Shown here one piece after another: positions 2,970 to 26,937 of a DNA stretch of 27,391 nucleotides. Source of the DNA: a virus; IMG/VR virus record IMGVR_UViG_3300045922_000612, positions 1 to 27,391 of that record; one strand, 5' to 3'. Numbering within the stretch: the first letter of the stretch is position 1; each line of letters begins with the position of its first letter. The position numbers were made by a program, and so were the translations under genes. The notes below the pieces were generated by a model. That model was not told the DNA's origin and searched no databases. It saw only the letters and a list, made by a program, of their open reading frames with translations.

Positions 2970-3280
2970 GCACGCTAGAGATACTGGAAGCCATGCAGGC
3001 CGTGCATGGCATCAGCGATGGGGAGCGGCAACAGCTCTGGGACTTCCTCATCGGGCTGCGGGACCGGCTCTTTGAGCACTACAGAAACGGCACCCGCATT
3101 TACGGGTTCAACGGACCCGGCAGCGGCTGGGGCGCTGATTGCAATTGGGTTATCGCCATCATCGGCAGGGATCTGCTGGTGGTGTGGTATGACGAAGAAC
3201 TGCACATCAACAATCGCGACGGCAGGCAGCCGCTGCGGTGTTTCACGCCAGATCTTGCCGAAAAATCACTCTGGCCATGA
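2966..3280 (+). CDS. Hypothetical protein
   Basis: A 104-residue protein, start GTG at 2966 overlapping the recombinase stop (GTGA) with AGGAAAGGAAA just upstream. The N-terminal ~45 residues are helical. The rest has a beta-hairpin pattern (NWVIAIIGRDLLVVWYD). No family is recognised. Its stop overlaps the next gene's start, so it is part of the coupled run. Confidence 0.65.
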   Translation: MSTLEILEAMQAVHGISDGERQQLWDFLIGLRDRLFEHYRNGTRIYGFNGPGSGWGADCNWVIAIIGRDLLVVWYDEELHINNRDGRQPLRCFTPDLAEKSLWP

Positions 3281-3636
3281 TGATCAAGCCCATTACCATT
3301 TCTGCCGCCAAGCACAAGCTCCAGCATTGCAGGCTCAAGTTCGGCGACGCCGAGCAGATCGAGATGCTGCGTGCGCTGCGGATGTTTGACGAGCTCAAGC
3401 GGTACGCGAAGGAGCATGGCTGCGCCTGCTGTGATGGCAAGGGTTATCAGATGTGCGGAGCTTGCCATGGTACCGGATATTCGCTCTACGGCGAGCCCTG
3501 CAGCGAGTGCGAGGATGGCCGGATCGAGTGCCTGCTGTGCGGCGGATTCGGCAAGCTGCCGTCGGAGCAGGCCAACATCCCGGTTGTCAAAAATGCGTAC
3601 CGGATCTTGCAGCAACGCCTTAGAATGGCGGTATGA
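3277..3636 (+). CDS. DnaJ-type cysteine-rich zinc protein without a J domain
   Basis: A 119-residue protein with four CxxC motifs spaced as in the DnaJ cysteine-rich region: CACCDGKG, CGACHGTG, CSECEDG and CLLCGGFG, at roughly residues 49-93. In DnaJ these knuckles form two zinc sites that bind unfolded protein. Here there is no J domain and no C-terminal substrate domain, so it is a stand-alone zinc module with an N-terminal helical extension. The double ATG (3277, 3280) overlaps the preceding stop. It may be a binding or redox adaptor. Confidence 0.8.
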   Translation: MMIKPITISAAKHKLQHCRLKFGDAEQIEMLRALRMFDELKRYAKEHGCACCDGKGYQMCGACHGTGYSLYGEPCSECEDGRIECLLCGGFGKLPSEQANIPVVKNAYRILQQRLRMAV

Positions 3637-8402: not shown

Positions 8403-8978
8403 ATGCCTGCACGACTCATCCGGCAAGGGCCGCTCGAGCTGGGGCGCGATCCAGGGCGCCCCTCTGGTATCCATCTCTCCGCACTGGTACACGCCGCCAT
8501 TGAGCGTGCTGGCGCGGGTTACCGCAACTCGGGCGGCCCGCCGGACGACCGGCTGCGGCTGGCAATGCAGATTGGGCTGGCGTGGGAGGACTGGTACGGG
8601 CCGCGCATCGAGGGCGCGATCTACCACCCGGGCAGCCTGCTGTACGAGGATGTCTGGTACTCGCCGGATGCGCTCGACATGGACCGGCTGATCTTGCATG
8701 AGATCAAAACCACCTCGCGCACGCCGCGCGGTCAGGATCCCTTTCAGACACTGCGCTGGAATCTGCAGGTGCAGGGCTATCTGTGGTGCTTGGGGCAGGG
8801 CGATTGGACGCGGGCACAGATCCATGTGCTCTACCTCGGCCAGCCCCCAGCGCCGGTGCTGGAAGTGTGGGAACGCGAGTATGGCGTGGAAGAGTTGAAA
8901 CGCACCTGGTATCAGGTGCTCGAGCCAATGAAGGAATTTGTAGAGGGAGAGAAAAATGGCAACGAAGAGTGCGAATAG
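8403..8978 (+). CDS. PD-(D/E)XK nuclease of the Cas4/RecB type
   Basis: A 191-residue nuclease. It shows the RecB-family signature: GLAWE (G58-E62), an acidic residue around D89-D92, then HEIKTTS (E100-x-K102), and a QxxxY helix (Q122-Y126). These bind metal and cut DNA. Phage relatives make 3' overhangs for single-strand annealing or trim ends. It lacks the cysteines of Cas4 iron-sulfur nucleases. The gene overlaps the following Sak4-like ATPase by 23 bases, an intimate coupling typical of phage recombination modules. Start ATG 8403; an in-frame GTG at 8392 is possible. Confidence 0.88.
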   Translation: MPARLIRQGPLELGRDPGRPSGIHLSALVHAAIERAGAGYRNSGGPPDDRLRLAMQIGLAWEDWYGPRIEGAIYHPGSLLYEDVWYSPDALDMDRLILHEIKTTSRTPRGQDPFQTLRWNLQVQGYLWCLGQGDWTRAQIHVLYLGQPPAPVLEVWEREYGVEELKRTWYQVLEPMKEFVEGEKNGNEECE

Positions 8979-15348: not shown

Positions 15349-15722
15349 TGCTGAATCCGTTCTTGGCCAGCGTTGTGCGCCGCAGGCACACGACGCTGGT
15401 TACGCTGCGCGAGCACGGCCAGGAGATCGAGCTGCTGTTCACCAGCCTCCGAGCACTGGATGCGCTGCGCCAGCAGATCTCAGAGGCGATCCGGCAGGCG
15501 CTGGACGGTGCGGAGGGTACGGAGTGGACCAATCCCTACCTTGCGGCGCGGCGCCGTGCGCATGATGAGGCATCAGATTTGCTCTACGATGCCGGGCTGC
15601 TGGACAAACCGGAGTTCATGGCGCGGGCCGAATTGGCCGCTCCTCCACGGGTGGAGCGTCTGGGTCAGCGGAGCGATAAATCCGCAGCACCGGATTCTGC
15701 AACGGGATCTCCTCGCCGGTAA
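15336..15722 (+). CDS. Small hypothetical protein
   Basis: A 128-residue protein starting at ATG 15336, overlapping the methyltransferase end by 13 bases with AGAGGAGGCG upstream. The first half is beta then a Leu-rich helix (LRALDALRQQISEAIRQAL), the second is helical with basic tail. The last ~107 bases overlap, tail to tail, the minus-strand zinc-ribbon gene, so its C-terminus may be partly adapted to that gene. Unrecognised. Confidence 0.6.
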   Translation: MRIVMLNPFLASVVRRRHTTLVTLREHGQEIELLFTSLRALDALRQQISEAIRQALDGAEGTEWTNPYLAARRRAHDEASDLLYDAGLLDKPEFMARAELAAPPRVERLGQRSDKSAAPDSATGSPRR

Positions 15723-16044
15723 GCTTCTGCCACATGCGGGCGACGCATTCGTAGTGCGCCGCGCCGCCGCGCATCACGTCGGCCAGGTACTCGCGGCGGA
15801 TGAGAGCCAGGGCCTGATCCCGCGCCCGCAATGAGATCTCGGCCAGTGCGAGGAAGCTGGACATCACATTGCTAACCATGCGGCGGCTGATCGAGAAGGC
15901 GCGGGCGCAGGACCGGCAGCGGAGCTGGATGCCCTGCGTGCGCAGAATCCGTTTCCCGCAATCGATGCAATCGATATAGACCGGCGGCTTGCGCGGCGGG
16001 AGCTGGTGGGGCAAGCGTGGGATCCGGTGCGGATTGCGTGCCAT
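15616..16044 (-). CDS. Zinc-ribbon protein with helical C-terminus
   Basis: A 142-residue minus-strand protein. A Pro/Arg-rich start is followed by two knuckles, CIDC and CRSC (near residues 25-46), then a long helical part ending in a short beta piece. The layout (metal ribbon plus helical bundle) fits a regulator or adaptor; no family recognised. ATG 16044 is preceded by a good promoter but no Shine-Dalgarno, so the mRNA may be leaderless. A longer frame to 16125 is unsupported. It is the only minus-strand gene between 5.1 and 24.7 kb. Confidence 0.7.
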   Translation of the reverse strand: MARNPHRIPRLPHQLPPRKPPVYIDCIDCGKRILRTQGIQLRCRSCARAFSISRRMVSNVMSSFLALAEISLRARDQALALIRREYLADVMRGGAAHYECVARMWQKLTGEEIPLQNPVLRIYRSADPDAPPVEERPIRPAP

Positions 16045-16052
16045 CAATGAGC

Positions 16053-16081
16053 AGTATAAACCGCCGCCGGTGGCCGGCCAG
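16053..16081 (-). promoter_or_regulatory. Probable sigma70 promoter for the minus-strand zinc gene
   Basis: On the minus strand TTGGCC (16081-16076), 17 bases, TATACT (16058-16053): 4/6 and 5/6 matches. The -10 is 8 bases from the ATG at 16044, implying a leaderless transcript. Confidence 0.45.
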
Positions 16082-16110
16082 GGTTTGGGATGGGCAGCCA
16101 GGCGGGGGGC

Positions 16111-16194
16111 TCCCGCGCCCGGCACCCAGCACTAGATCCCAGCATCGGCGCTAAGCACCAGCTCCCGCGCCCGGCATCCGGCACAGGATCCCAT
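16111..16194. repeat. Imperfect 32-base direct repeat pair
   Basis: Copies at 16111-16142 and 16163-16194, both starting CTCCCGCGCCCGGCA and ending GATCCCA; four mismatches. Period 52. A shorter fragment (ACCCAGCACCC) follows near 16202. Confidence 0.75.
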
Positions 16195-16475: not shown

Positions 16476-17210
16476 ATGAACAACAACGATCCCATCTACA
16501 CCGCCCGCGCCGAAAGCGGGCACCACTGGCGGCTGTACTGCGATTACGCGCACGAAGCCGCGCAGGAAGCGCGGATCACCGCGCAGTCGGAGGCGCGGGG
16601 CATCTGGCCCCGCAGCTGGGTGGAGGACTTCGCCGGGTATCCCTGCCCCGGCAATAGCCTAGAGCCCAAGTACTTCCGGTTGGTGCTCCTCGAGGATGGG
16701 GTATCCATCGGAGAGGACGAGGTGAAGGTTGCTCCGCCGGAGCCATCCTGCCCGCAATCGGAGCGGGGGCACTATTGGGTGCGCCTGCCAAGCGGGGAGC
16801 ATTTCTGCATCCATTGCGGGATGCGGCGCTATGAGGAGTGGTCCGAGTTGGAGCAAGAGAACGTGTACGGGTACTACTGGCCGGAGTGGATCGGAACGCC
16901 TCGCCACATCCCGGATTACGCAGGATTGCCTGAGCTGGTGCAGGAGCGCATCAAGGCGCGGGACTTTAACCTGCGCGAGGCAATCTCTCGGCAGCACTGG
17001 GTGGTAGCCGCCGGAGTGCTGCAGGACGTCTGGGAGGCCGTCGAGGATCGCCTGATTGACCTGGACGACGACGACGACGAGGAGGAGGCGGCCATGCGCG
17101 AGTTCCGTTGTTGGCTGGCGGAGCTCGGCAAAGAGTATCGGGAACTGATTTATGCCATCCGCGAGTGGTACATCGCGGACGAGCTGGAGGAGGCCCTGCG
17201 CGGGCGGTAG
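16476..17210 (+). CDS. Cassette zinc protein A (C-H-C-C motif)
   Basis: A 244-residue protein with an excellent ribosome site (AAGAAGGAGGAAATC). A variable N-terminal domain ends in PEPSC, and then the shared motif: C92, H99-x-W101, C111-IHC-114-G, followed by an aromatic-rich stretch. This would hold one zinc ion. The C-terminal half is helical with an Asp-rich run (DDDDDEEE, near residue 194) and many Trp. It opens the rightward cassette. Three later proteins have the same motif and order. Function unknown; single-zinc modules usually mediate DNA or protein contacts. Confidence 0.75.
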   Translation: MNNNDPIYTARAESGHHWRLYCDYAHEAAQEARITAQSEARGIWPRSWVEDFAGYPCPGNSLEPKYFRLVLLEDGVSIGEDEVKVAPPEPSCPQSERGHYWVRLPSGEHFCIHCGMRRYEEWSELEQENVYGYYWPEWIGTPRHIPDYAGLPELVQERIKARDFNLREAISRQHWVVAAGVLQDVWEAVEDRLIDLDDDDDEEEAAMREFRCWLAELGKEYRELIYAIREWYIADELEEALRGR

Positions 17211-17220
17211 CGCTGTTGGC

Positions 17221-17249
17221 GGCCCGCCGTCGATTGCCGGCGGCGGGCC
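17221..17249 (+). repeat. Intercistronic hairpin 1
   Basis: GGCCCGCCG (17221-17229) pairs with CGGCGGGCC (17241-17249) and the pairing extends inward to a 5-base loop (12 bp with one G-U). No T-run follows, so not a classical terminator. Confidence 0.8.
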
Positions 17250-17286
17250 AGTGTTAACCGAGTTTTCAAACCATAGGAGGGCTGCA

Positions 17287-17568
17287 ATGAAGAAGAAGAA
17301 CTATTTCAAGCATTTGAACGACGTGGAGCACGTCGCCGACTACACCGGGTTCCGTTACGATCCTCGGTGGAGGCAGGAGACTAAGTTTGAGGTCGGCGTC
17401 TACGTCGGCAAGGTTCCGTGGGCGCAGAAATGGGTCACCTTTGAGGCGTGCGAACTCGCTGACGGATCCTGGCTGCGCTCCCGCCGCAGCGGGATCTACA
17501 GCTCCCGCGAGCGGGCCATCCAGCGGGCCTGGATTGTTGCCCAATTAGAAGACGGGCGCAATCTGTGA
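17287..17568 (+). CDS. Small cassette protein, no zinc motif
   Basis: A 93-residue basic, Trp-rich protein with AGGAGGGCTGCA before ATG 17287. It has several Arg- and Tyr-rich strands and a C-terminal helix (ERAIQRAWIVAQLE). No metal motif or family is recognised. It sits between hairpins 1 and 2 in the cassette. The frame extends upstream to 17152 only as shadow. Confidence 0.7.
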   Translation: MKKKNYFKHLNDVEHVADYTGFRYDPRWRQETKFEVGVYVGKVPWAQKWVTFEACELADGSWLRSRRSGIYSSRERAIQRAWIVAQLEDGRNL

Positions 17569-17574
17569 TGTTCC

Positions 17575-17600
17575 GGCCCGCCGGTGCCGTCCGGCGGGCC
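17575..17600 (+). repeat. Intercistronic hairpin 2
   Basis: Perfect 10-bp stem GGCCCGCCGG (17575-17584) / CCGGCGGGCC (17591-17600), loop TGCCGT, then AAACC and the next ribosome site. Confidence 0.85.
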
Positions 17601-17622
17601 AAACCAATCATAAGGAGGGCTT

Positions 17623-18333
17623 ATGGACTACACTGTACAAATCAATCACCCCGGGGATCTCGAGATCCCCGCGCTGAGCATCGATGCCACAACGCCCGCT
17701 GCTGCGGCACAAAAGGCCCTAGAACGCGTTGCCGGAAGCGCGGAGTACCTAGAGGCCATCTTCGGCCCGCCGCGCGTTCTGAGGCCACGGGAGGCGCTGG
17801 AATCGGCTATCGTGCGGGCCACTGCCGACGGCGCGGAGGCATTCGCCCTCGTCGATCCGCCGGAGCCCCCCTGCGCCGGCGCACGCCACGAGTGGGGCGA
17901 CGTGGAGGGGGAGCCCCACTCTGATCACCGGCAGATGTGCTGGACCTGCGGACTGATCCGCGAACAAACAGAGGAGGGGTTGATTCGCTACACCGGCCAC
18001 CAACTCCGGCAGCCCACCACCAGCATCCTGCGGGATGCCACGGTATCGATGCTCAACAACCACCGCGCCTGCGGTGCGCGGGTGAGGGATGAGCAGTGGG
18101 TCCGCGCCGTTGCTGTTTGGCTCTCCGAACAGTGGGACGCGGACGCCTGGTCCGCCTTCCGCACTTCCGGGCTCTCGACAGAGGACCGGCGGCTGCTGCG
18201 GGAGGCCGCGCTGGATGTCGACCTGCCCCGGCTGATCGCACTGCCACTCGAGGAGTGCGAGGACTGGGTGGAGCAGCAGCTGCAGCGGATGGCGGAGGCC
18301 CGCGCCGCCGCCGCTGCTGCAGGGGAGGAATAG
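17623..18333 (+). CDS. Cassette zinc protein B (C-H-C-C motif)
   Basis: A 236-residue protein. The N-terminus alternates strand, Ala-rich helix and strand (YTVQIN; PAAAAQKALERV). PEPPC leads into the motif: C84, H89-E-W, C106-WTC-109-G. The C-terminal ~110 residues are helical, with a long Ala-rich tail. Start ATG 17623 has AAGGAGGGCTT. Architecture matches cassette proteins A, C and D, with sequence strongly diverged outside the zinc motif. Confidence 0.75.
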   Translation: MDYTVQINHPGDLEIPALSIDATTPAAAAQKALERVAGSAEYLEAIFGPPRVLRPREALESAIVRATADGAEAFALVDPPEPPCAGARHEWGDVEGEPHSDHRQMCWTCGLIREQTEEGLIRYTGHQLRQPTTSILRDATVSMLNNHRACGARVRDEQWVRAVAVWLSEQWDADAWSAFRTSGLSTEDRRLLREAALDVDLPRLIALPLEECEDWVEQQLQRMAEARAAAAAAGEE

Positions 18334-18343
18334 CACTGTTTCT

Positions 18344-18370
18344 GGCCCGTCACTCCAGCAGTGGCGGGCC
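18344..18370 (+). repeat. Intercistronic hairpin 3
   Basis: GGCCCGTCACT (18344-18354) pairs with AGTGGCGGGCC (18360-18370), one G-U, loop CCAGC. A second small hairpin, GGGGGC-ACC-GCCCCC (18392-18406), lies just before the next ribosome site. Confidence 0.8.
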
Positions 18371-18420
18371 AAACTTGAGGCCACTGAAACTGGGGGCACC
18401 GCCCCCGAAGGAGGTTTGTT

Positions 18421-19248
18421 ATGGACCTGAAGACTCAAGCCCGCGCCCGCCTGCTGCGGGCGATCTACGACTGCCCCGCCCGCTCCTGGGGCGATGGATG
18501 CTCCATGCTCGAGGAGGGGGCCGAAGCGGAAGCCGCCCGCGCTGATGCGGCGCGGCTGGTGTACTCAAGTTCTCCCGGCGGCAGCGCCAGTCCGGGGCAG
18601 AACACGCTGAACGCCGCAGTGTGTTCTGCTCTGCAGGGGCTCCGGCAGGAGATCCTCGAAACCGAGGATCCCCTCCGCGCCGCAGGCCTGCTCAGTATTG
18701 CGGCGGAGGTGTGGAGGCTGGCCCGCACGCAGCGGCCATGGAGGCCGCCGCAAGCCTATGCTGACGCCCGCACGGCGTGGAATGAGGTTTGCGACGCCGC
18801 GCACTGGCGCGGCGTGAACGCCGGGCCGCTGGGCGCGGTGGCCGGGCGCGGTGCGCACCTCCAGCACTATTACGCGCACCGGGTGCCGGTGGATGACAGC
18901 ATCGGTCTCGACGTGCACATCGACCGCCAGCCCGGCGAGGCAACGTGGCGGGCGAAGGTGTGGGACGTCCGCACCGGCTGCGAGCCACGCGATGAGTGGG
19001 GCAACTCGACCGGGCCCTACTTCCCGCATCCGCTGCGGCTGGGCTTTGTCAGTTACCGTGCCTTTAAGCTGAGGGCATGGCTGGACTATTCCGGCTTCGT
19101 CCACATTGAGGCCACCAGCCGCCATGGGCGCAAGTTGCGCGAGTTCCGCAGCGTGCTTGCGGTGCCGGATGAGTTCCGGCTGCCGCATCAGCGCGGCGCG
19201 GGACTCGAGCCCCCGCCGCCGCCTCCGGTGCTGGAGGAAGAGTGCTGA
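18421..19248 (+). CDS. Cassette protein, no zinc motif
   Basis: A 275-residue protein with GAAGGAGGTTTGTT upstream. The first ~120 residues are helical and Ala-rich. The rest is beta-type (HLQHYYAHRVPVDD; DVHIDRQPGEATWRAKVWDV), ending in a Pro-rich run (PPPPPP) before a Glu tail. No family recognised. It has the same leader organisation as its neighbours, so likely belongs to the same unit. Confidence 0.7.
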   Translation: MDLKTQARARLLRAIYDCPARSWGDGCSMLEEGAEAEAARADAARLVYSSSPGGSASPGQNTLNAAVCSALQGLRQEILETEDPLRAAGLLSIAAEVWRLARTQRPWRPPQAYADARTAWNEVCDAAHWRGVNAGPLGAVAGRGAHLQHYYAHRVPVDDSIGLDVHIDRQPGEATWRAKVWDVRTGCEPRDEWGNSTGPYFPHPLRLGFVSYRAFKLRAWLDYSGFVHIEATSRHGRKLREFRSVLAVPDEFRLPHQRGAGLEPPPPPPVLEEEC

Positions 19249-19256
19249 TATCCCGT

Positions 19257-19286
19257 GCCCGCCATGCATCCCCATGCGTGGCGGGC
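19257..19286 (+). repeat. Intercistronic hairpin 4
   Basis: GCCCGCCATGCAT (19257-19269) pairs with ATGCGTGGCGGGC (19274-19286), 13 bp with one G-U, loop CCCC; followed by AAACC and the ribosome site AAAGGAGA. Confidence 0.85.
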
Positions 19287-19312
19287 GCGTGCAAACCGAA
19301 AGGAGATCTGGT

Positions 19313-20014
19313 ATGCAGTATTCAATTCTGCGTTGTGATTACCCCGGCCCTTTATCAGTTGACTTGCCATCCCGGCGCGATGTGCTGCGCCTGGCCAAGA
19401 TGGAACTGGATCTGATCAGCCATCCGACATCACGCAGCGAGGCTCAGCGCCTGCTGCAAAACCCGTTCGCCAGCGGCGAATCGCAGATAGGCGGCCACCT
19501 TGCGTGGGTGGAGATCCGCTGGCCGGACGGAAGCAAGCGCAAGCTGCAGCGTCTGGTCCCGCCGCCGGATCCCGGCTGCGTGAACTGCTGCCACAGCTGG
19601 GTGCGGTACAAAGGCGTGGAAATATGCCTGCATTGCGGGCTCCGGCGCGAGATGAGCCGTGGGCGTGTGGTGTGCTACATGTCGCCGCTGAGGCCCAAAC
19701 TCCACGGCGCGGAAGACGCCAAGCTGGGTGAGCTGATGCGGCATCTGCCAAACAACGCCTGGGGAAGGCGGTTTGTGACGATGATTCGGGATGCTGAACA
19801 GCGTTACTGGGGCGGGCAATACAGCGGCGCTCTGGATCATCTGTTCCTGGCGGCGCGGCAGATGCTGGAAGGCACCGGCGGCGGCATCCGCACGCGTCGC
19901 GTGCTCATAGCCATGCTGCGGCGGATCATATCGCTCAATCCGTTTCTGCGGCTGGCTGCACGCCGTTTCTACGGCACAAACTGGGCGGCGGTGGTTTTAC
20001 CTTTGAAGAACTAG
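19313..20014 (+). CDS. Cassette zinc protein C (C-H-C-C motif)
   Basis: A 233-residue protein. It opens with a strand (MQYSILRCDYPGPL), then a helix with Arg and Ala, and a strand ending at PDPGC. The motif is C89, extra C92-C93, H94-S-W, C105-LHC-108-G. It ends in a helical, Arg-rich part. Start ATG 19313 is set by the ribosome site AGGAGATCTGGT; an in-frame open stretch upstream to 19106 lies over the preceding gene. Fourth cassette member in order, third with the zinc motif. Confidence 0.75.
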   Translation: MQYSILRCDYPGPLSVDLPSRRDVLRLAKMELDLISHPTSRSEAQRLLQNPFASGESQIGGHLAWVEIRWPDGSKRKLQRLVPPPDPGCVNCCHSWVRYKGVEICLHCGLRREMSRGRVVCYMSPLRPKLHGAEDAKLGELMRHLPNNAWGRRFVTMIRDAEQRYWGGQYSGALDHLFLAARQMLEGTGGGIRTRRVLIAMLRRIISLNPFLRLAARRFYGTNWAAVVLPLKN

Positions 20015-20023
20015 GAGGCACGA

Positions 20024-20224
20024 ATGAAGAAGAAGCTGCTGACGCTGGAAGAGATGATGCAGTACTTGAACATCGGCAGAGTTACGCTCTGGCGCTACAT
20101 GAACGAGAAGGGCATGCCGTACTACCGGCTGCCTGGCGGCGACCTGCGCTTCGATGTCGACGAAGTGCGGGCGTGGATGAGAAAAAAACCTGTTGACAAG
20201 AGTCAAGTGAAAGTGAAGAATTAG
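20024..20224 (+). CDS. Excisionase / AlpA-like MerR-type DNA-binding protein
   Basis: A 66-residue protein with a winged helix-turn-helix of the excisionase (HTH_17/AlpA) type: LLTLEEMMQYLNIGRVTLWRYM then the basic wing KGMPYYRLPGGDLRF and DVDEVRAWM. Such proteins bend DNA for excision, or activate promoters. AGGAGGCACGA precedes the ATG. Its likely partner is the tyrosine recombinase at 2367, though far away. The basic KKP...K tail is typical. Confidence 0.85.
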   Translation: MKKKLLTLEEMMQYLNIGRVTLWRYMNEKGMPYYRLPGGDLRFDVDEVRAWMRKKPVDKSQVKVKN

Positions 20225-20253
20225 GGCATGAGTGCTGAAAGGAGAACTCACGC

Positions 20254-20493
20254 ATGAAGCTTGTTACCGAATCTGCAGCGGCGCTGCGCATGGCGCTGTC
20301 TTACCTGCGCCAGAGCGCGGCGCTGTGGGAAGGCAAGGACGACGAGATCGAGGAAGCCCACGCCGAGCTCGACGCCAATATCGAAGACCTGCTCTCGGTC
20401 GTCGAGGATGAAAGCGAAGATGAGTGCGGCGTAGAGCCGGAAGAGGAGTACGAGGAGGATGAGGAGGACGAGGAGGATGAAGGACTGGTATAA
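20254..20493 (+). CDS. Small acidic protein
   Basis: A 79-residue protein with AAAGGAGAACTCACGC before its ATG. About residues 1-48 are helical; from ~51 nearly every residue is Glu or Asp (EEEYEEDEEDEEDE). Highly acidic phage proteins can mimic DNA and inhibit DNA-binding host enzymes; that is only a possibility here. It overlaps the next gene by 17 bases, with its acidic codons doubling as the next ribosome site (GAGGACGAGGAGG). Confidence 0.65.
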   Translation: MKLVTESAAALRMALSYLRQSAALWEGKDDEIEEAHAELDANIEDLLSVVEDESEDECGVEPEEEYEEDEEDEEDEGLV

Positions 20494-20704
20494 GTACCGC
20501 TATCTGGTGCTTACTGCCAGATCCGCCGACTACACCAGATTCGGCGCGGTTTACGCCGCCGCTACTGATGCCGAAGCAGCAGAGGAAGAAGCGGCGGCGC
20601 TCAACGTGGAAATGGAATTGAAGAAGGGACAACGCAATGAACCATTATCGTTTCACGGTCCACATGCTTCTCCGGGGCGTGGAGAAGCCCCTAGCGGAAG
20701 GTGA
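20477..20704 (+). CDS. Small hypothetical protein with cassette-like N-terminal domain
   Basis: A 75-residue protein starting at ATG 20477 inside the acidic gene. It begins with a strand (YRYLVLTARSADY), then FGAVYAAATDAEAAEEEAAALN, a helix, like the N-terminal beta-alpha-beta unit of the cassette zinc proteins. The last ~20 residues overlap the next gene by 68 bases and are Pro/Gly-rich, so the true C-terminus is doubtful. Function unknown. Confidence 0.5.
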   Translation: MKDWYKYRYLVLTARSADYTRFGAVYAAATDAEAAEEEAAALNVEMELKKGQRNEPLSFHGPHASPGRGEAPSGR

Positions 20705-21068
20705 GATCCGGGCTCAAACGGTCCACCAAGCTCTGCGCGATGCCATCAAGGCCGCACACCAGTGGTTTGACGCCAATGCGTCGCATCTGATGCCGCCGCC
20801 GGGAATCGGCGAAGATAACGCCACAGCATCTGTAGTGCTGATGGCAGAGGCCTTCTCCCGCACGCGCCGCCAGTGGCAGGGACAGATGGTTACCTTTGAT
20901 CCGCCCCTGCCTGAGTGCAGATCCAGCGACGGCAAGCACAAATGGGCCGCATACAAGTTTGAGGGCAAAGCCCGCATCTGCAACAAGTGCGGGCTGGTGC
21001 AGGAGCGCAAACACGGAGCAGGCTACCTGCTTTATTACAGCCCTGAGTATCTGAAGTGGGCGCTGTAG
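20637..21068 (+). CDS. Cassette zinc protein D (C-H-C-C motif)
   Basis: A 143-residue protein, the shortest family member. It starts YRFTVHMLLRG, then a helix (HQALRDAIKAAHQWF) and a strand ending PLPEC. Motif: C94, H101-K-W, C115-NKC-118-G, ending in YLLYYSPEYLKWAL. There is no long helical C-terminus, so the N-terminal unit plus zinc module seem to be the core of the family. ATG 20637 follows GAAGGGACAACGCA. Confidence 0.75.
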   Translation: MNHYRFTVHMLLRGVEKPLAEGEIRAQTVHQALRDAIKAAHQWFDANASHLMPPPGIGEDNATASVVLMAEAFSRTRRQWQGQMVTFDPPLPECRSSDGKHKWAAYKFEGKARICNKCGLVQERKHGAGYLLYYSPEYLKWAL

Positions 21069-21079
21069 GAGACAACACC

Positions 21080-21364
21080 ATGCACGGGCCACTGATCCAC
21101 CTGAACGGCACCAGCCCTGAGCGCCTGCTGGAGGCGCTGGATGAAGCCTACGCTGCTCTTGATACCGCAATCGAAAAGCTCGCCGTGTGCGCACCCAACA
21201 TGCGCGGCTATTACCCGCTGCCGGACGGCGTCGAGATCTTCAACCAAGACGTTGCCGAGCACCGGGCAATGCTTAGCCAGCTCCGCGCCATGCGGTCCAC
21301 GCTGGAGCAAGTGAGCGAGTCCATCTGGCTGCAGCAGGAGCGGAGGAAGCGGCCTCATGGCTGA
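21080..21364 (+). CDS. Small hypothetical helical protein
   Basis: A 94-residue protein with GTAGGAGACAACACC before its ATG. Two helices (SPERLLEALDEAYAALDTAIEK and HRAMLSQLRAMRSTLEQVSESI) separated by a Pro/Gly loop suggest a helical hairpin. No known family. Ends overlapping the next start by 8 bases. Confidence 0.6.
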   Translation: MHGPLIHLNGTSPERLLEALDEAYAALDTAIEKLAVCAPNMRGYYPLPDGVEIFNQDVAEHRAMLSQLRAMRSTLEQVSESIWLQQERRKRPHG

Positions 21365-21629: not shown

Positions 21630-21832
21630 TCGCAAGCGGGAACGCTACAGAATTCTACGAGTTCGCGAAGAAACACCCGGATTCCGCGTTCGGTTCAGTG
21701 TTTCTGGAGATCTGGAACGCAGAGATGAAGAAGGCGCTGGAAGGCCGCAACGTGTCGCGGGAATTCTTCCTGGCGCTGCACGAGATCGTATGTGCTGAGG
21801 CCGCGCACATGGCGATGGAGCGGATCCGGTGA
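21626..21832 (+). CDS. Small hypothetical helical protein
   Basis: A 68-residue, largely helical protein starting at ATG 21626 after AGGAGGGAGTC. Ends one base into the start of the ParB-like gene. No family recognised; frames opening further upstream are shadows. Confidence 0.6.
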   Translation: MIASGNATEFYEFAKKHPDSAFGSVFLEIWNAEMKKALEGRNVSREFFLALHEIVCAEAAHMAMERIR

Positions 21833-22572
21833 TGCGCATCATCACATGCGATCCCCGGCACCTGATCCTCGACGCCAACCTGCGGCCCGGCGACTGGCGC
21901 GTGGATGACATGGTGGCGGACCTGCTCGCGGCTGGCCGCCAGCTCCAGCCCATCGGCATCACGGAGGACAGGCGCGTACTGTTCGGCTTCCGCCGCGCCG
22001 CTGCGCTGCTGCGCATCTCAGAGCGCGAGATGGTGCCAGCGGGCCACCCGTTGCGGAGCGCCGCCTGCGCCGTGCTGGACGGCGATATCGACGGCGTCGA
22101 CCGCGTGCGGCTGCAGCTGCTCGAGAACACCGCGAGGCTCAACTACAGCCCCATGGAGGAGGCGGCCATCATCCAGCAGCTCCGCGCCGCCGGTTACAAG
22201 ATGGAGACTGTGGCGCAGATGTTCCGGCGCACCAAGGGCTGGGCGTCGCAGCGGCTCGCGCTGCTGAAGCTGCCGCCGGACGTGCAGGCGATGGTGGGAG
22301 AGCAGATTGCGCCGTATGAGGCCTACCTGCTGGCGCAGATGCCGGAAGCGCGGATGCGGCGGCGCGTGGCCGCCATGCTGGAAGCCGCGCCCAAGCGCCA
22401 TGACGTGGCCACGCAGCGGCGCCGCAGCCTGCTGCGCGAGCTGGAGAACATGCCGGTGCGCGGTCCGGCACGGCCACTGATGCAGGCGCTGGTGGGACTT
22501 CTAAAAGGTGAAACCACGGTCCAGGAGTTCGTTGGCCGGGTCGAAAAGCTTGTCAGTGATTCGAAGAGGTAG
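21832..22572 (+). CDS. ParB-like protein
   Basis: A 246-residue member of the ParB/Spo0J superfamily. The N-terminal ParB fold has GFRRAAA (52-58), the equivalent of the CTP/DNA-contact GERR box, and ENTARLNYSPMEEAA (98-111), the canonical second box. A helix-turn-helix follows (~119-160, YKMETVAQMFRRTKGWASQRLALL). In phages such proteins serve partition of plasmid prophages, regulate genes or act as nucleases. No ParA gene is in the window. ATG 21832 directly follows the previous gene; an in-frame GTG at 21829 is possible. Confidence 0.8.
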   Translation: MRIITCDPRHLILDANLRPGDWRVDDMVADLLAAGRQLQPIGITEDRRVLFGFRRAAALLRISEREMVPAGHPLRSAACAVLDGDIDGVDRVRLQLLENTARLNYSPMEEAAIIQQLRAAGYKMETVAQMFRRTKGWASQRLALLKLPPDVQAMVGEQIAPYEAYLLAQMPEARMRRRVAAMLEAAPKRHDVATQRRRSLLRELENMPVRGPARPLMQALVGLLKGETTVQEFVGRVEKLVSDSKR

Positions 22573-22575
22573 CAC

Positions 22576-24735
22576 ATGCAGGCAAGGGCTCTACTTACGT
22601 TCCGCGATGGCATCTGGGTGTGGCTGGGAGGCTACGATACCATAGATATTCCGAAACAGGCAGGCTTCGCTTGGGACCACAACCGCAAATTTTGGTGGAC
22701 GGATTCCGCAAAACGCGCATTGAAGCTCAAGAACTATTGCGACGTTTCAGCCGCTGAAGCGCTGAACGAAGCCCACCGCGCCGAGCGCCGGGCGCTGGAG
22801 GAAAGCAGCGCCATCACAGCCGACATCGACATCCCAGCGCCCAAGGGCCGCAGCTATATGGAGTTCCAGAAGGCAGGCGTGGCTTATGCTTCGCGCCGCA
22901 CCGGCACCCTCATTGCCGACGAGATGGGGCTAGGAAAAACCATTCAGGCGCTGGGCCTGGTCAACTATGACCGCAGCATCGAGAAGGTGCTTGTGGTCTG
23001 CCCGGCCAGCTTGAAGATGAATTGGGCACGCGAGGCCGAGAAGTGGCTCGTGCGCCCGTTCCGTATCGGTATCGTTGAGAGCAAAGTGTGGCCGCTCAAC
23101 GGCAACTTCATTATCATCAACTACGACATCCTGGACCGCCACATCGACCGCATCCGCGCCACGCCGTGGGATCTGGTTGTGCTGGACGAGGCGCACTACA
23201 TCAAGAGTCCTGACGCCAAGCGCACAAAGCTGGTGCTGGGCGAGAAGAAGTGGGACAGCATGCGCCGCGCGTGGGACGTGAAGGCGCCGCCGATCCCGGC
23301 CCGCGTGCGGCTGGCGCTGACCGGCACGCCGATTCTCAACCGCCCGCAAGAGATGTGGTCGCTTGTGGAGTGGTGCCTGATGGACAAGCCGGTGTACCAG
23401 CGTTTCGAATATTTCCGCAGCCGGAGCAAGTTCTGGCAGAGGTACGCCGACTGGCACGAGAGCCGCTACGGCTGGGAGTTCGGCTCGCCGCAAAACCTGA
23501 GCGAGCTGCAGGAGCAGGCGCGGCTGACGTTCATGATCCGCCGCACCAAGAACCAGGTGCTCCTTGACCTGCCGCCCAAGCGGCGGCAGGTGATCGAGAT
23601 CAGCAGCGAGGGCTTCGAGGGCGTGCTCCGGCGCGAGCGCGAGATGTACGAGCGGCAGGCCGAGCGGCTGGCCGAGGCGCAAACCAAGTTCCTCATCGCC
23701 AAGGCCAGCGGCAACGATGAAGAGTACGAGCGGGCAATTGAGGAGCTCAAGGAGGCGCAGCGGGTGCCGTTCGAGGAAATGTCGGCCATCCGGCACGAGG
23801 TCGGCCTGGCTACGGTCCGCGCTGCCAAGGGCTTCCTCAGAGACACTATCGAGGGCATCGAGAAGGCGGTTATCTTCGCACACCACCACGATGTGATCGA
23901 TGAGCTGATGGCCATTGCCAGCGAAGCGGTGCGCAGCGATGATGGCGAGTTCGCGGTCAAGCTCACCGGCGGCATGAGCGCGGCAGCCAAACAGGCTGCC
24001 GTGGATGCGTTTCAAACAAACCCGAAGGCTCGTGTTTTCATCGGCAGCATCACTGCCGCCGGCGTCGGAATCACCCTCACTGCGGCCAGCCACGTTATCT
24101 TTGTCGAGCTCGACTGGGTGCCCTCCAACATCCAGCAGGCCGAGGACCGCTGCCACCGCATCGGCCAGCGCGACTGCGTCAACGTGCAGCATGTGGTGCT
24201 GGAAGGCAGCATGACTGCTAGGATGGCCAAGGTGATCGTGGAGAAGATGACATCGATCCGCGAGGCAACCGAGAGCGAATACATGCGATCGCACCTCAAG
24301 GAAGTGGTTACGCCTGTGGAGGCCGTCAGCTCTGCGCATGCTGAAGTCAAAACCATGCGCCGCGAGACCATCAAGGCCGAGGCGCAGGCGCTCACCGCCC
24401 GGCAGATCGATATCATCTACGCCATGGTGCGGGCCATCGCCTTCCAGTGCGATGGAGCGCGGACGGAGGATTGCGTTGGGTTTAACAAGTTCGACAGCGT
24501 CTTTGGCCGCACCATAGCATCAAGGCCACGCGAGCTGTTCACGCCGGGCCTTGCGGTGGTCACGGCCAAGATGCTGCGCAAGTACTGGCGGCAGCTGATG
24601 CAGTACTTCTCGCCGCAAGAGATCGACGAGGTTTACGGCGCAGGCGAATATGACCGCTGGCGCAGCAGGCGCAATCCGGCAGGCGAGGCGGAGGAGGACT
24701 TCACGCGCGAGCTGGAGCGCAACGCAGACTGGTAA
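22576..24735 (+). CDS. SNF2-family helicase-like ATPase
   Basis: A 719-residue Swi2/Snf2 protein. Motif I is DEMGLGKT (115-122), motif II DEAH (204-207), and motif VI QAEDRCHRIGQRD (521-533), all canonical. The ~90-residue N-terminal region (WAWDHN..FWWTDS-type aromatic block) resembles the substrate-binding piece of SMARCAL1-like annealing translocases, though the match is loose. Phage members translocate on duplex DNA and aid replication restart or recombination. The ParB-like gene is immediately 5' of it, with 3 bases between. Its stop is adjacent to the minus-strand gene's stop, convergent with no gap. Confidence 0.93.
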   Translation: MQARALLTFRDGIWVWLGGYDTIDIPKQAGFAWDHNRKFWWTDSAKRALKLKNYCDVSAAEALNEAHRAERRALEESSAITADIDIPAPKGRSYMEFQKAGVAYASRRTGTLIADEMGLGKTIQALGLVNYDRSIEKVLVVCPASLKMNWAREAEKWLVRPFRIGIVESKVWPLNGNFIIINYDILDRHIDRIRATPWDLVVLDEAHYIKSPDAKRTKLVLGEKKWDSMRRAWDVKAPPIPARVRLALTGTPILNRPQEMWSLVEWCLMDKPVYQRFEYFRSRSKFWQRYADWHESRYGWEFGSPQNLSELQEQARLTFMIRRTKNQVLLDLPPKRRQVIEISSEGFEGVLRREREMYERQAERLAEAQTKFLIAKASGNDEEYERAIEELKEAQRVPFEEMSAIRHEVGLATVRAAKGFLRDTIEGIEKAVIFAHHHDVIDELMAIASEAVRSDDGEFAVKLTGGMSAAAKQAAVDAFQTNPKARVFIGSITAAGVGITLTAASHVIFVELDWVPSNIQQAEDRCHRIGQRDCVNVQHVVLEGSMTARMAKVIVEKMTSIREATESEYMRSHLKEVVTPVEAVSSAHAEVKTMRRETIKAEAQALTARQIDIIYAMVRAIAFQCDGARTEDCVGFNKFDSVFGRTIASRPRELFTPGLAVVTAKMLRKYWRQLMQYFSPQEIDEVYGAGEYDRWRSRRNPAGEAEEDFTRELERNADW

Positions 24736-24900: not shown

Positions 24901-26733
24901 CTATTGTTTATCACGCTCTTCTTCATCCTGCTTGGCCCAGATTTCGTCGGCGTGGAAGAACTCGGTCAGGAACTTCTCCCACTTCTGCGGCGTCTGGCTC
25001 ACCACGGACCAGATCGGCGGATAGCTCTTGATCAGCGTAGCCACAACATCCTGCCCGTACTCGAGCACGGCGTCGTAGACCTGCCGCCCGCTGGTGTTCG
25101 CGCCGAACATGCCATTGTCGGTGAGCTCGATCAGCTTCTCGGCGAACTCCGCGCCGCTCTCGCCGTTGTTGAAGCTAACCAGGATGGGCCTTTCAATCAT
25201 CCGCAAGAACAGTGTGAAGCGATCCATCGCGCTCTGCGCCTCCTGTTGTTGATGTTGATTCTGTGCTGGCATCCCTTCGCCCGTTGTGGGCGCCGCCGCC
25301 TGCTCCGCTGCCGGTGCTGCTTGCGGTGGCGCTGGCACCGGCTCCGGCTTGCCTGTTCCTGTTTTCGCCACGGCGAGGTTATGCATGGCGTTGGCGAAGT
25401 ACACGCCCAGCACGTTGAGCCCCTGCACGAGCAGCGGCGCATACTTCATCCAGGCGGGCTCCTCCGGCTTGTCATTGTCCAGCCCCAGCAGCTCGCGCAG
25501 CTCTTCCTTTGCGCTGGCCATCTCGCGCAAGCTTTCGATCAGGCTTTTGGGTTTCTCCGCGACAGCCACCGCGCCGGGATTGGGAGCCGGTGCCTGCGCT
25601 GCTGCTGCCTGCTGCTGCGCCATGCGCTCGATCAGCCCTTCGAGCGACCGGATGCGCTCGTTCTGAATTTGAAAGATCATCTCGACATATTTCTTTTCCG
25701 CTTCCAATGCTTGCGGCGGCGCAACAGGCTGAGGCTGGATCAGATCCTTAAGCACGCCCGCAACTTCCTTGATGCTGGCCAGCGGGTTGGCATTCTGCTT
25801 CTGCAACTCCATCACCTGCTTCACGCTCTCTTCCATGATCTTGGCTGCGCTCTGCGTGGCGCTGGCGCTGGCCACTGTCATCAGATCCAGCAGCTTTTCC
25901 GGCAGCCGGGTTTCGCCGCTGGGCTGTGTCTCGCGCGTCTGCTGCGCAACGTGCAATACTTTGTCCGTCATCCGGTCCACAGTGCTGGCAAGCTGTTTGA
26001 TCGCCTCTGCATTGGCCATATCGTCTTCCTTCCTTTCTTCTCTGTTAGCTGTGTTTCCCTCCTTGATCCTGGCTTCCTGCTCCGGCGTCAGCATGCCTCT
26101 GCTGCGGGCCCAAAGCAGATAGCTCTGGTTGGACTTGTCATCGAAATCCAGATCCGCGATGTTGAGCACCGGCGGGAACTCGTTCAGTTGCCGGGCCCCC
26201 AAGTTCTTCAGGTGGCAGTTGGTGATGTTGAGGTTTTTGCTGCCGCTGTCGTTCAGCCGCAGCCAGTAATCGCCGCAGCCGAATGAGCGCAGGATGTCAT
26301 CCGGCATCATCACGCCGTCGTAAACCTTCGTGACGTGCCTCTTGTTGTCCATCATGGCCGGCCAGCCACGGTAGATGTAGACCACGACGCGATCCCGGAA
26401 TTCTTCCCGCTCCATGAGCGATTTCCAGTAACGGAAGAATTCCATGGGCTTGCCAGTTTCCTTCTGGGCCTCGTCGTGGAAGAACCGCACCGGGGCTTTG
26501 GGGAACGGCTTCATTGTCTGCGACGGCTTGCCTGCCCTGCGCCGGCGCAGGCTGGGCTCTGGCACCGGCTTGTCCAGCGGCAGTTCTGCCTCTGCATCAT
26601 CTGTGGGGGTTACGATCTGGGGCGGGCTGTACTCTGGCTCAGGCTCGGCGGCCTGCTCCTGTTCTGCGGCGACGATCTCGTCGATGGCTTCTTCGTCCGG
26701 GTCTGGCGGAAGCGGTTTTACTTCTTCGGGCAT
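24901..26733 (-). CDS. Large phage protein with low-complexity and coiled-coil regions
   Basis: A 610-residue protein. The N-terminal ~75 residues are Pro/Glu-rich. Residues ~80-220 form a globular domain (FFRYWKSLMEREEFRDR; YIYRGWPAMMDNK; LRSFGCGDYWLRLND) that I have the impression occurs in other phages without known function. A helical/coiled-coil middle (~235-400), an Ala/Pro/Gln linker (~470-510) and a helical C-terminus follow. ATG 26733 is chosen because AGGAGGTGTG precedes it. Plus-strand frames across this gene are low-complexity shadows. A virion or scaffold role is possible but unproven. Confidence 0.75.
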   Translation of the reverse strand: MPEEVKPLPPDPDEEAIDEIVAAEQEQAAEPEPEYSPPQIVTPTDDAEAELPLDKPVPEPSLRRRRAGKPSQTMKPFPKAPVRFFHDEAQKETGKPMEFFRYWKSLMEREEFRDRVVVYIYRGWPAMMDNKRHVTKVYDGVMMPDDILRSFGCGDYWLRLNDSGSKNLNITNCHLKNLGARQLNEFPPVLNIADLDFDDKSNQSYLLWARSRGMLTPEQEARIKEGNTANREERKEDDMANAEAIKQLASTVDRMTDKVLHVAQQTRETQPSGETRLPEKLLDLMTVASASATQSAAKIMEESVKQVMELQKQNANPLASIKEVAGVLKDLIQPQPVAPPQALEAEKKYVEMIFQIQNERIRSLEGLIERMAQQQAAAAQAPAPNPGAVAVAEKPKSLIESLREMASAKEELRELLGLDNDKPEEPAWMKYAPLLVQGLNVLGVYFANAMHNLAVAKTGTGKPEPVPAPPQAAPAAEQAAAPTTGEGMPAQNQHQQQEAQSAMDRFTLFLRMIERPILVSFNNGESGAEFAEKLIELTDNGMFGANTSGRQVYDAVLEYGQDVVATLIKSYPPIWSVVSQTPQKWEKFLTEFFHADEIWAKQDEEERDKQ

Positions 26734-26937
26734 CACACCTCCTCGCGGGGATTCTACCACGGAACACCGGAGCAAACGCGGCGCAAGTAACGCCAAACTT
26801 TGCCGGAAAGCGCCCAGCCAGCATTACCATGCACTTAGAGGCGGCACCGCAAAAGGCGTTAATCACATTAACATCACTATTAGCATTTAACATTTTGGCC
26901 AGTTTTGGTTTACGATTCCAGCAGTGAATGACGCCAC
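26734..26937. promoter_or_regulatory. Divergent promoter region
   Basis: A 204-base gene-free segment between the minus-strand 610-aa gene and the plus-strand gene at 26938. It is AT-rich at 26850-26920. It has a dyad GTTAAT-CAC-ATTAAC (26859-26873) and a promoter TTAACA (26887-26892), 18 bases, TACGAT (26911-26916) facing right. Confidence 0.45.
26859..26873. promoter_or_regulatory. Operator-like dyad
   Basis: Perfect GTTAAT / ATTAAC arms with a 3-base centre, 13 bases upstream of the -35 of the rightward promoter. A repressor or activator site is likely, but no bound protein is identified. Confidence 0.4.

Follow-up and report, generated by a model that had tools for sequence, protein, structure and literature searches.

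A family of four diverged zinc-ribbon-like paralogues at a hypervariable locus in an integrase-bearing phage group

Hotspots of variable genes in phages hold conflict systems (PMC9122126); in P2-like phages, for example, conserved flanks surround a non-homologous, rapidly exchanged gene set. In prophages, individual genes, among them ardA (anti-restriction), are flanked by hammerhead RNAs that may cleave polycistronic transcripts (PMC3088659). Here we describe a locus with flanks and turnover of the first kind in the phage-like genome of IMG/VR record IMGVR_UViG_3300045922_000612, analysed over its whole length of 27,391 bases (the window, to whose positions coordinates refer unless another record is named). 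It differs from the described hotspots in that its content has no assigned function and includes tandem paralogue expansions, among them the four genes treated here, P1 to P4. The window encodes an integrase, a DNA helicase, Sak4, a DNA methyltransferase, ParB, an SNF2 helicase and, by reading of the sequence, an ERCC4-type nuclease.

Each of the four genes has a Shine-Dalgarno-like sequence directly upstream of its start, making good ribosome-binding sites (pI, isoelectric point):

16476..17210, plus strand: P1, 244 residues, pI 4.65; N-terminal unit, core PPEPSC-PQSERG-HYW...CIHCGMRR, acidic C-terminus
17623..18333, plus strand: P2, 236 residues, pI 4.75; core PPEPPC-AGAR-HEW...CWTCGLIRE
19313..20014, plus strand: P3, 233 residues, pI 10.24; compact core PPDPGC-VNCC-HSW...CLHCGLRRE
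20637..21068, plus strand: P4, 143 residues, pI 9.22; core PPLPEC-RSSDGK-HKW...CNKCGLVQE, without a C-terminal extension

The four products have in common a core, some 45 residues long, that reads PP-x-P-x-C-x(4,6)-H-x-W-x(8-14)-C-x2-C-G, with R or Q, E and one fixed Tyr after it; the columns invariant across the alignment are P, P, P, C, H, W, C, C, G, E and that Y. An earlier sequence-only reading had proposed a diverged family of four genes beginning at these same starts and sharing PxPxC, C-x(4-6)-H-x-W and C-x2-C-G in one order, and both proposals hold. Its description of the residues after C-x2-C-G as Tyr-rich was overstated, there being only the one fixed Tyr, and the C-x4-H spacing that it gave to P3 alone is found in P2 as well, P1 and P4 having C-x6-H. 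H-x-W is present in four of four, and lies 9 (P1), 14 (P2), 8 (P3) or 11 (P4) residues before C-x2-C-G. The four candidate zinc ligands C, H, C and C are invariant, and the core is probably a Cys-His-Cys-Cys (CHCC) zinc-ribbon-like unit, for which zinc binding is predicted.

The likeness goes beyond chance, because leave-one-out profiles and a DNA pattern both single out these genes. Profiles of any three recovered the fourth among 5899 six-frame open reading frames (ORFs), with expectation values (E) of 7.7e-5 for P1, 3.8e-8 for P2, 2.5e-9 for P3 and 2.4e-8 for P4; no ORF outside the four did better than E 0.02. A degenerate DNA pattern of the core motif matched exactly four times in the window, with none expected from shuffles. 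Convergence of short zinc motifs, or plain chance, would account for a likeness confined to about 45 residues, but is most improbable in view of those E values (8e-5 to 2.5e-9) and of a common motif order that takes in the non-ligand residues P, W, E and Y. Outside the core, the N- and C-terminal parts of the four have no detectable sequence similarity to one another (hhalign probabilities below 1%), in keeping with the divergence already remarked upon, and the proteins split by charge, P1 and P2 being acidic and P3 and P4 basic. As judged from their sequences, P1 to P4 are true, strongly diverged paralogues.

Kin phages were located through their helicase and Sak4 genes, and four of them (G010, G016, G022 and G024) span the locus. 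Flanking genes are collinear in the kin, with identities of 61–66% for Sak4, 48–62% for the ERCC4-type nuclease, 46–60% for the gene near 15.3 kb, 35–36% for ParB and 50–52% for SNF2; not every record shows all of these markers in the stretch that was read. Between a small gene pair (about 15.3–16.1 kb) and ParB (21829), gene content is almost wholly different among the four: G022 has MoxR-like ATPase and VWA-like genes, and G010 and G016/G024 have other sets (names by sequence reading). The core profile of P1 to P4 found no match in any kin phage record, including the four that span the locus, so that the survey for the same cassette in other phages that had been proposed turned up other genes in its place. 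This is a hypervariable accessory locus of an integrase-bearing phage group, with conserved flanks and differing content in the four kin.

In G022 the locus holds four tandem diverged paralogues of another unnamed family (L064 10429-13458, plus strand; pairwise E 6e-25 to 2e-4). This family differs from P1 to P4, and tandem expansion has therefore occurred at the locus at least twice, with different families. The earlier suggestion of selection for variety fits both the variability of the locus between related phages and this second tandem family. A further pair in the same record, at L064 7141-8228, has its C-terminal 56 residues in common.

The genes inside and bordering the cassette are as follows:

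15616..16125, minus strand: left border, two-CxxC protein; kin phages have, as judged by eye, a similar small double-Cys gene at this position, and the neighbouring gene starting near 15.3 kb (plus strand) is the one with counterparts at 46–60%
17284..17568 (start approximate), plus strand: small gene between P1 and P2, unrelated to P1 to P4, no family match
18421..19248, plus strand: gene between P2 and P3, unrelated to P1 to P4, no family match
20024..20224, plus strand: HTH_17 excisionase-like DNA-binding protein between P3 and P4 (Pfam PF12728, E 1.8e-12; phrog_66, E 9.3e-12)
21056..21364 (start approximate, ATG at about 21080), plus strand: small gene directly after P4, the only one at the locus for which a kin-phage counterpart could be detected (G024, 34%)
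21829..22572, plus strand: right border, ParB-like protein
22576..24735, plus strand: SNF2-type helicase, the synteny anchor

Zinc ribbons often bind nucleic acid or polymerase. This general knowledge, the HTH_17, ParB and SNF2 neighbours and the basic character of P3 and P4 favour the strongest rival account, in which the four act in the phage as nucleic-acid-binding regulators or as accessories of replication; the ribbon would contact DNA or RNA polymerase, and the helix-turn-helix (HTH), ParB and helicase neighbours would reflect replication or transcription switching. Yet P1 and P2 are strongly acidic, and the family is absent from kin phages that retain ParB and SNF2, and is therefore not a core replication function. 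We consider the account possible but rather unlikely.

Three other observations concern neighbouring or more distant genes. In three kin phages the gene immediately before ParB encodes another small two-CxxC ribbon protein, which is missing in the window:

L043 5239-5547, minus strand
L062 10338-10931, plus strand
L063 10531-11124, plus strand

Adjoining the SNF2 gene, 24901-26796 (minus strand) encodes a 631-residue protein that is 40% identical in G010 and has no PHROGs match. Away from the locus, 3238-3636 (plus strand) encodes a small protein with CxxCxGxG-like repeats (CACCDGKG, CGACHGTG, CSECEDG, CLLCGGFG) resembling the DnaJ zinc domain, at only E 0.18 against DnaJ.

Searches of Pfam, PHROGs, NCBIfam, PADLOC and the PDB gave no match for P1 to P4, the best scores against the classical zinc-ribbon families of Pfam, NCBIfam and PHROGs (12–17 bits) being below cut-off or at E above 0.01. 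The CxxCG knuckle of P1 is like that of Zn_Ribbon_1 (PF13240), but at 12.3 bits against a cut-off of 25 (E 0.15) P1 is not a member on that test. The sequence-only reading had likewise found no name for the family, and its own refuting outcome, zinc motifs belonging to different known families, did not appear above cut-off in Pfam, NCBIfam or PHROGs. There was no match by tblastn of P1 to P4 in 50,697 phage records, no close relative in a protein search of IMG/VR with P3 and P4, and nothing matching in the literature on zinc-ribbon phage families of this kind. A host search through the ERCC4-type nuclease found no match in GTDB and 396 genomes of one phylum.

Two degenerate motif patterns gave 5 and 9 matches in IMG/VR, none of them on inspection a plausible gene of the family, and 61 in GTDB genomes with no members, an IS1595-like ribbon and one Thiotrichales ORF being look-alikes; the patterns required the codon CCG at the first Pro or TGC at the last Cys, and could therefore pass over members using other codons, and close kin may be lacking from the records searched. 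Two Acidobacteriota matches (E 7e-5 and 3e-4) were rejected for want of an in-frame CxxCG.

A weak profile match picked out a protein, about 169 residues long, encoded in a Thiotrichales metagenome-assembled genome (MAG), and from there the search reached plasmid proteins, giving four probable relatives:

L132:265-771, minus strand: Thiotrichales MAG
WP_013006576.1: Thioalkalivibrio plasmid pTK9001
WP_146152102.1: Ahniella plasmid
WP_198138379.1: Pelobacter plasmid pPRO1

The plasmid family of WP_013006576.1 has P-x-x-P-x-C-x(4-6)-H-x-W, C-x2-C-G and a Tyr in the same order as P1 to P4, and P, P, C, H, W, C, C and G are invariant in an alignment of all eight sequences. The N-terminal unit of these relatives reads by eye as beta-beta-alpha-beta-beta; at the sequence level N-terminal parts cannot be aligned. 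The relatives differ in that W and CxxC are separated by a conserved loop, rich in glycine and about 20 residues long (GG...PG...G), which is absent in P1 to P4. Profiles of the two groups align at 85% probability (hhalign, E 5e-6) over 34–36 core columns only, and the plasmid-family profile ranks P4 first on the window, at only E 0.014. Column-shuffled profile-profile controls gave E 0.3–0.8 and unselected ribbons from these phages E 0.014 or weaker; controls selected for the motif also score (an IS1595-like ribbon at 40%, L087 at 69%). Because such look-alikes score too, we hold homology between P1 to P4 and the plasmid and MAG proteins to be probable, short of proof.

The plasmid relatives are annotated as hypothetical and so shed no light on function. 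They bear nevertheless on two further accounts. If P1 to P4 were subunits of one hetero-oligomeric complex, four members of opposite charge in one probable operon would be natural; but other genes are interspersed among them, and the probable plasmid relatives were found only once in each record, which points to a unit that acts on its own. This makes the complex very unlikely. Alternatively, the four may be maintenance or partition accessories, from the plasmid-like (ParA/ParB) side of the element. A ParB gene lies downstream of the cassette, the Thiotrichales relative adjoins a divergent ParA-like gene (by eye) and the remaining relatives are plasmid-borne. The annotation around the Thioalkalivibrio, Ahniella and Pelobacter genes shows no partition gene, however, and ParB-bearing kin phages are without the family, leaving this idea too only a slender chance.

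A model of P2 residues 1-130, built with the four aligned sequences, has a predicted local distance difference test score (pLDDT) of 72.4 and a predicted template modelling score (pTM) of 0.62. Its elements are strands at 2-8 and 18-21, helices at 25-37 and 40-47, strands at 62-68 and 71-77, followed by four short strands within the core. In this model of P2 the N-terminal unit reads as beta-beta-alpha-beta-beta with a small ribbon, a better description than the beta-alpha-beta first proposed, and a unit of this kind may precede the core in all four. Fold searches with the model gave no match at E 0.001; with VIA-align Z was at most 4.2, sliding clamps and AcrIF9 at Z of about 3 being indistinguishable from background. 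P4 modelled alone reached a pLDDT of 40 and was set aside. Overlapping the start of P4, a possible unlisted small gene at 20477-20704 (plus strand) has first 50 residues resembling a stand-alone beta-beta-alpha unit; sequence similarity of its product to the N-termini of P1 to P4 was looked for and none was found.

Near-identical GC hairpins separate the first five cistrons, and a related-looking one precedes P1:

16405..16429, plus strand: related-looking hairpin GCCTGCTGCG..CGCAGCGGGC, 10 bp stem, before P1
17221..17249, plus strand: GC hairpin GGCCCGCC..GGCGGGCC, 12 bp stem, between P1 and the 17284 gene
17575..17600, plus strand: same hairpin, 10 bp stem, between the 17284 gene and P2
18343..18371, plus strand: same hairpin, 12 bp stem, between P2 and the 18421 gene
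19254..19289, plus strand: same hairpin, 16 bp stem, between the 18421 gene and P3

The arms GCCCGYC..GGCGGGC occur at four places, all of them cassette gaps (7 matches on the two strands together, where 0.15 would be expected), and the hairpin-bearing gaps have z-scores of -2.4 to -4.4. Lacking a T tract, the hairpins are unlike typical terminators, and may be RNA processing or stabilising elements. A search of the window for the hammerhead core CUGANGA...GAAA found none, and an Rfam scan of the whole window locus gave no match at gathering score.

In kin phages, by contrast, gaps between genes at the locus hold type I hammerhead-like RNAs, as in the prophage gene blocks flanked by hammerheads (PMC3088659), where the window has repeated GC hairpins instead. 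G016 carries a type I core (Rfam RF00163) before each of four accessory genes, at 21.3–26.8 bits (E 7e-4 to 0.05), below the gathering score of 34 bits yet with the full catalytic core. Similar cores in G020 and G024 bring the kin with such RNAs to three:

L062 7634-7699, 7904-7968, 8242-8307 and 8565-8624, plus strand: hammerhead-like RNAs between accessory genes
L062 8917, L063 8225 and L065 8265: further hammerhead-like cores

On the minus strand of L043 there are two similar CTGACGAG/GAAAC cores, starting at 8612 and 9361 from the reverse-complement end.

Since diverged paralogues stand at a locus variable in kin, since hotspots are known to hold conflict systems, and since the locus in kin has hammerhead-like RNAs of the sort that flank ardA in prophages, we give about an even chance to P1 to P4 being small intracellular host-interaction proteins, for takeover or counter-defence, built on one zinc-ribbon core and housed in a dedicated hypervariable locus. 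The analysis established paralogy, local conservation, variability of the locus, recurring tandem families and repeated gap elements. Beyond these, the proteins would be made early in infection and be cytosolic; the core, with its presumed zinc, may serve as a common structural or docking scaffold; the variable N- and C-terminal parts would contact different host targets; and the gap hairpins may act on the RNA to separate or stabilise cistrons, the probable effect of the hammerhead ribozymes in the kin.

Several points weigh against the host-interaction reading. No member of the family or probable plasmid relative has a known function, and the PADLOC search, whose models are of defence proteins, gave no match. 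A usable structure model is at hand for one of the four proteins only, without a significant fold match. Hypervariability and tandem copies are compatible with several roles, and relatives on plasmids and, in the Thiotrichales MAG, beside a ParA-like gene could hint at DNA maintenance. More specific, and in our view distinctly unlikely, is the notion that the ribbon is a docking tag common to proteins with different payload domains, the genes being tandem-expanded, self-contained and swappable effector units at a fixed, rapidly exchanged locus, separated by RNA elements (hairpins in the window, hammerhead ribozymes in the kin).

The set is a real, diverged family without a name, an interesting lead though ordinary in kind. 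It adds a family marked by a clear sequence signature and probably linked to plasmid proteins that are themselves unnamed. The locus beside ParB hosts more than one kind of tandem paralogue family, with RNA elements between genes, and is thus a defined place for seeking new counter-defence or takeover proteins.

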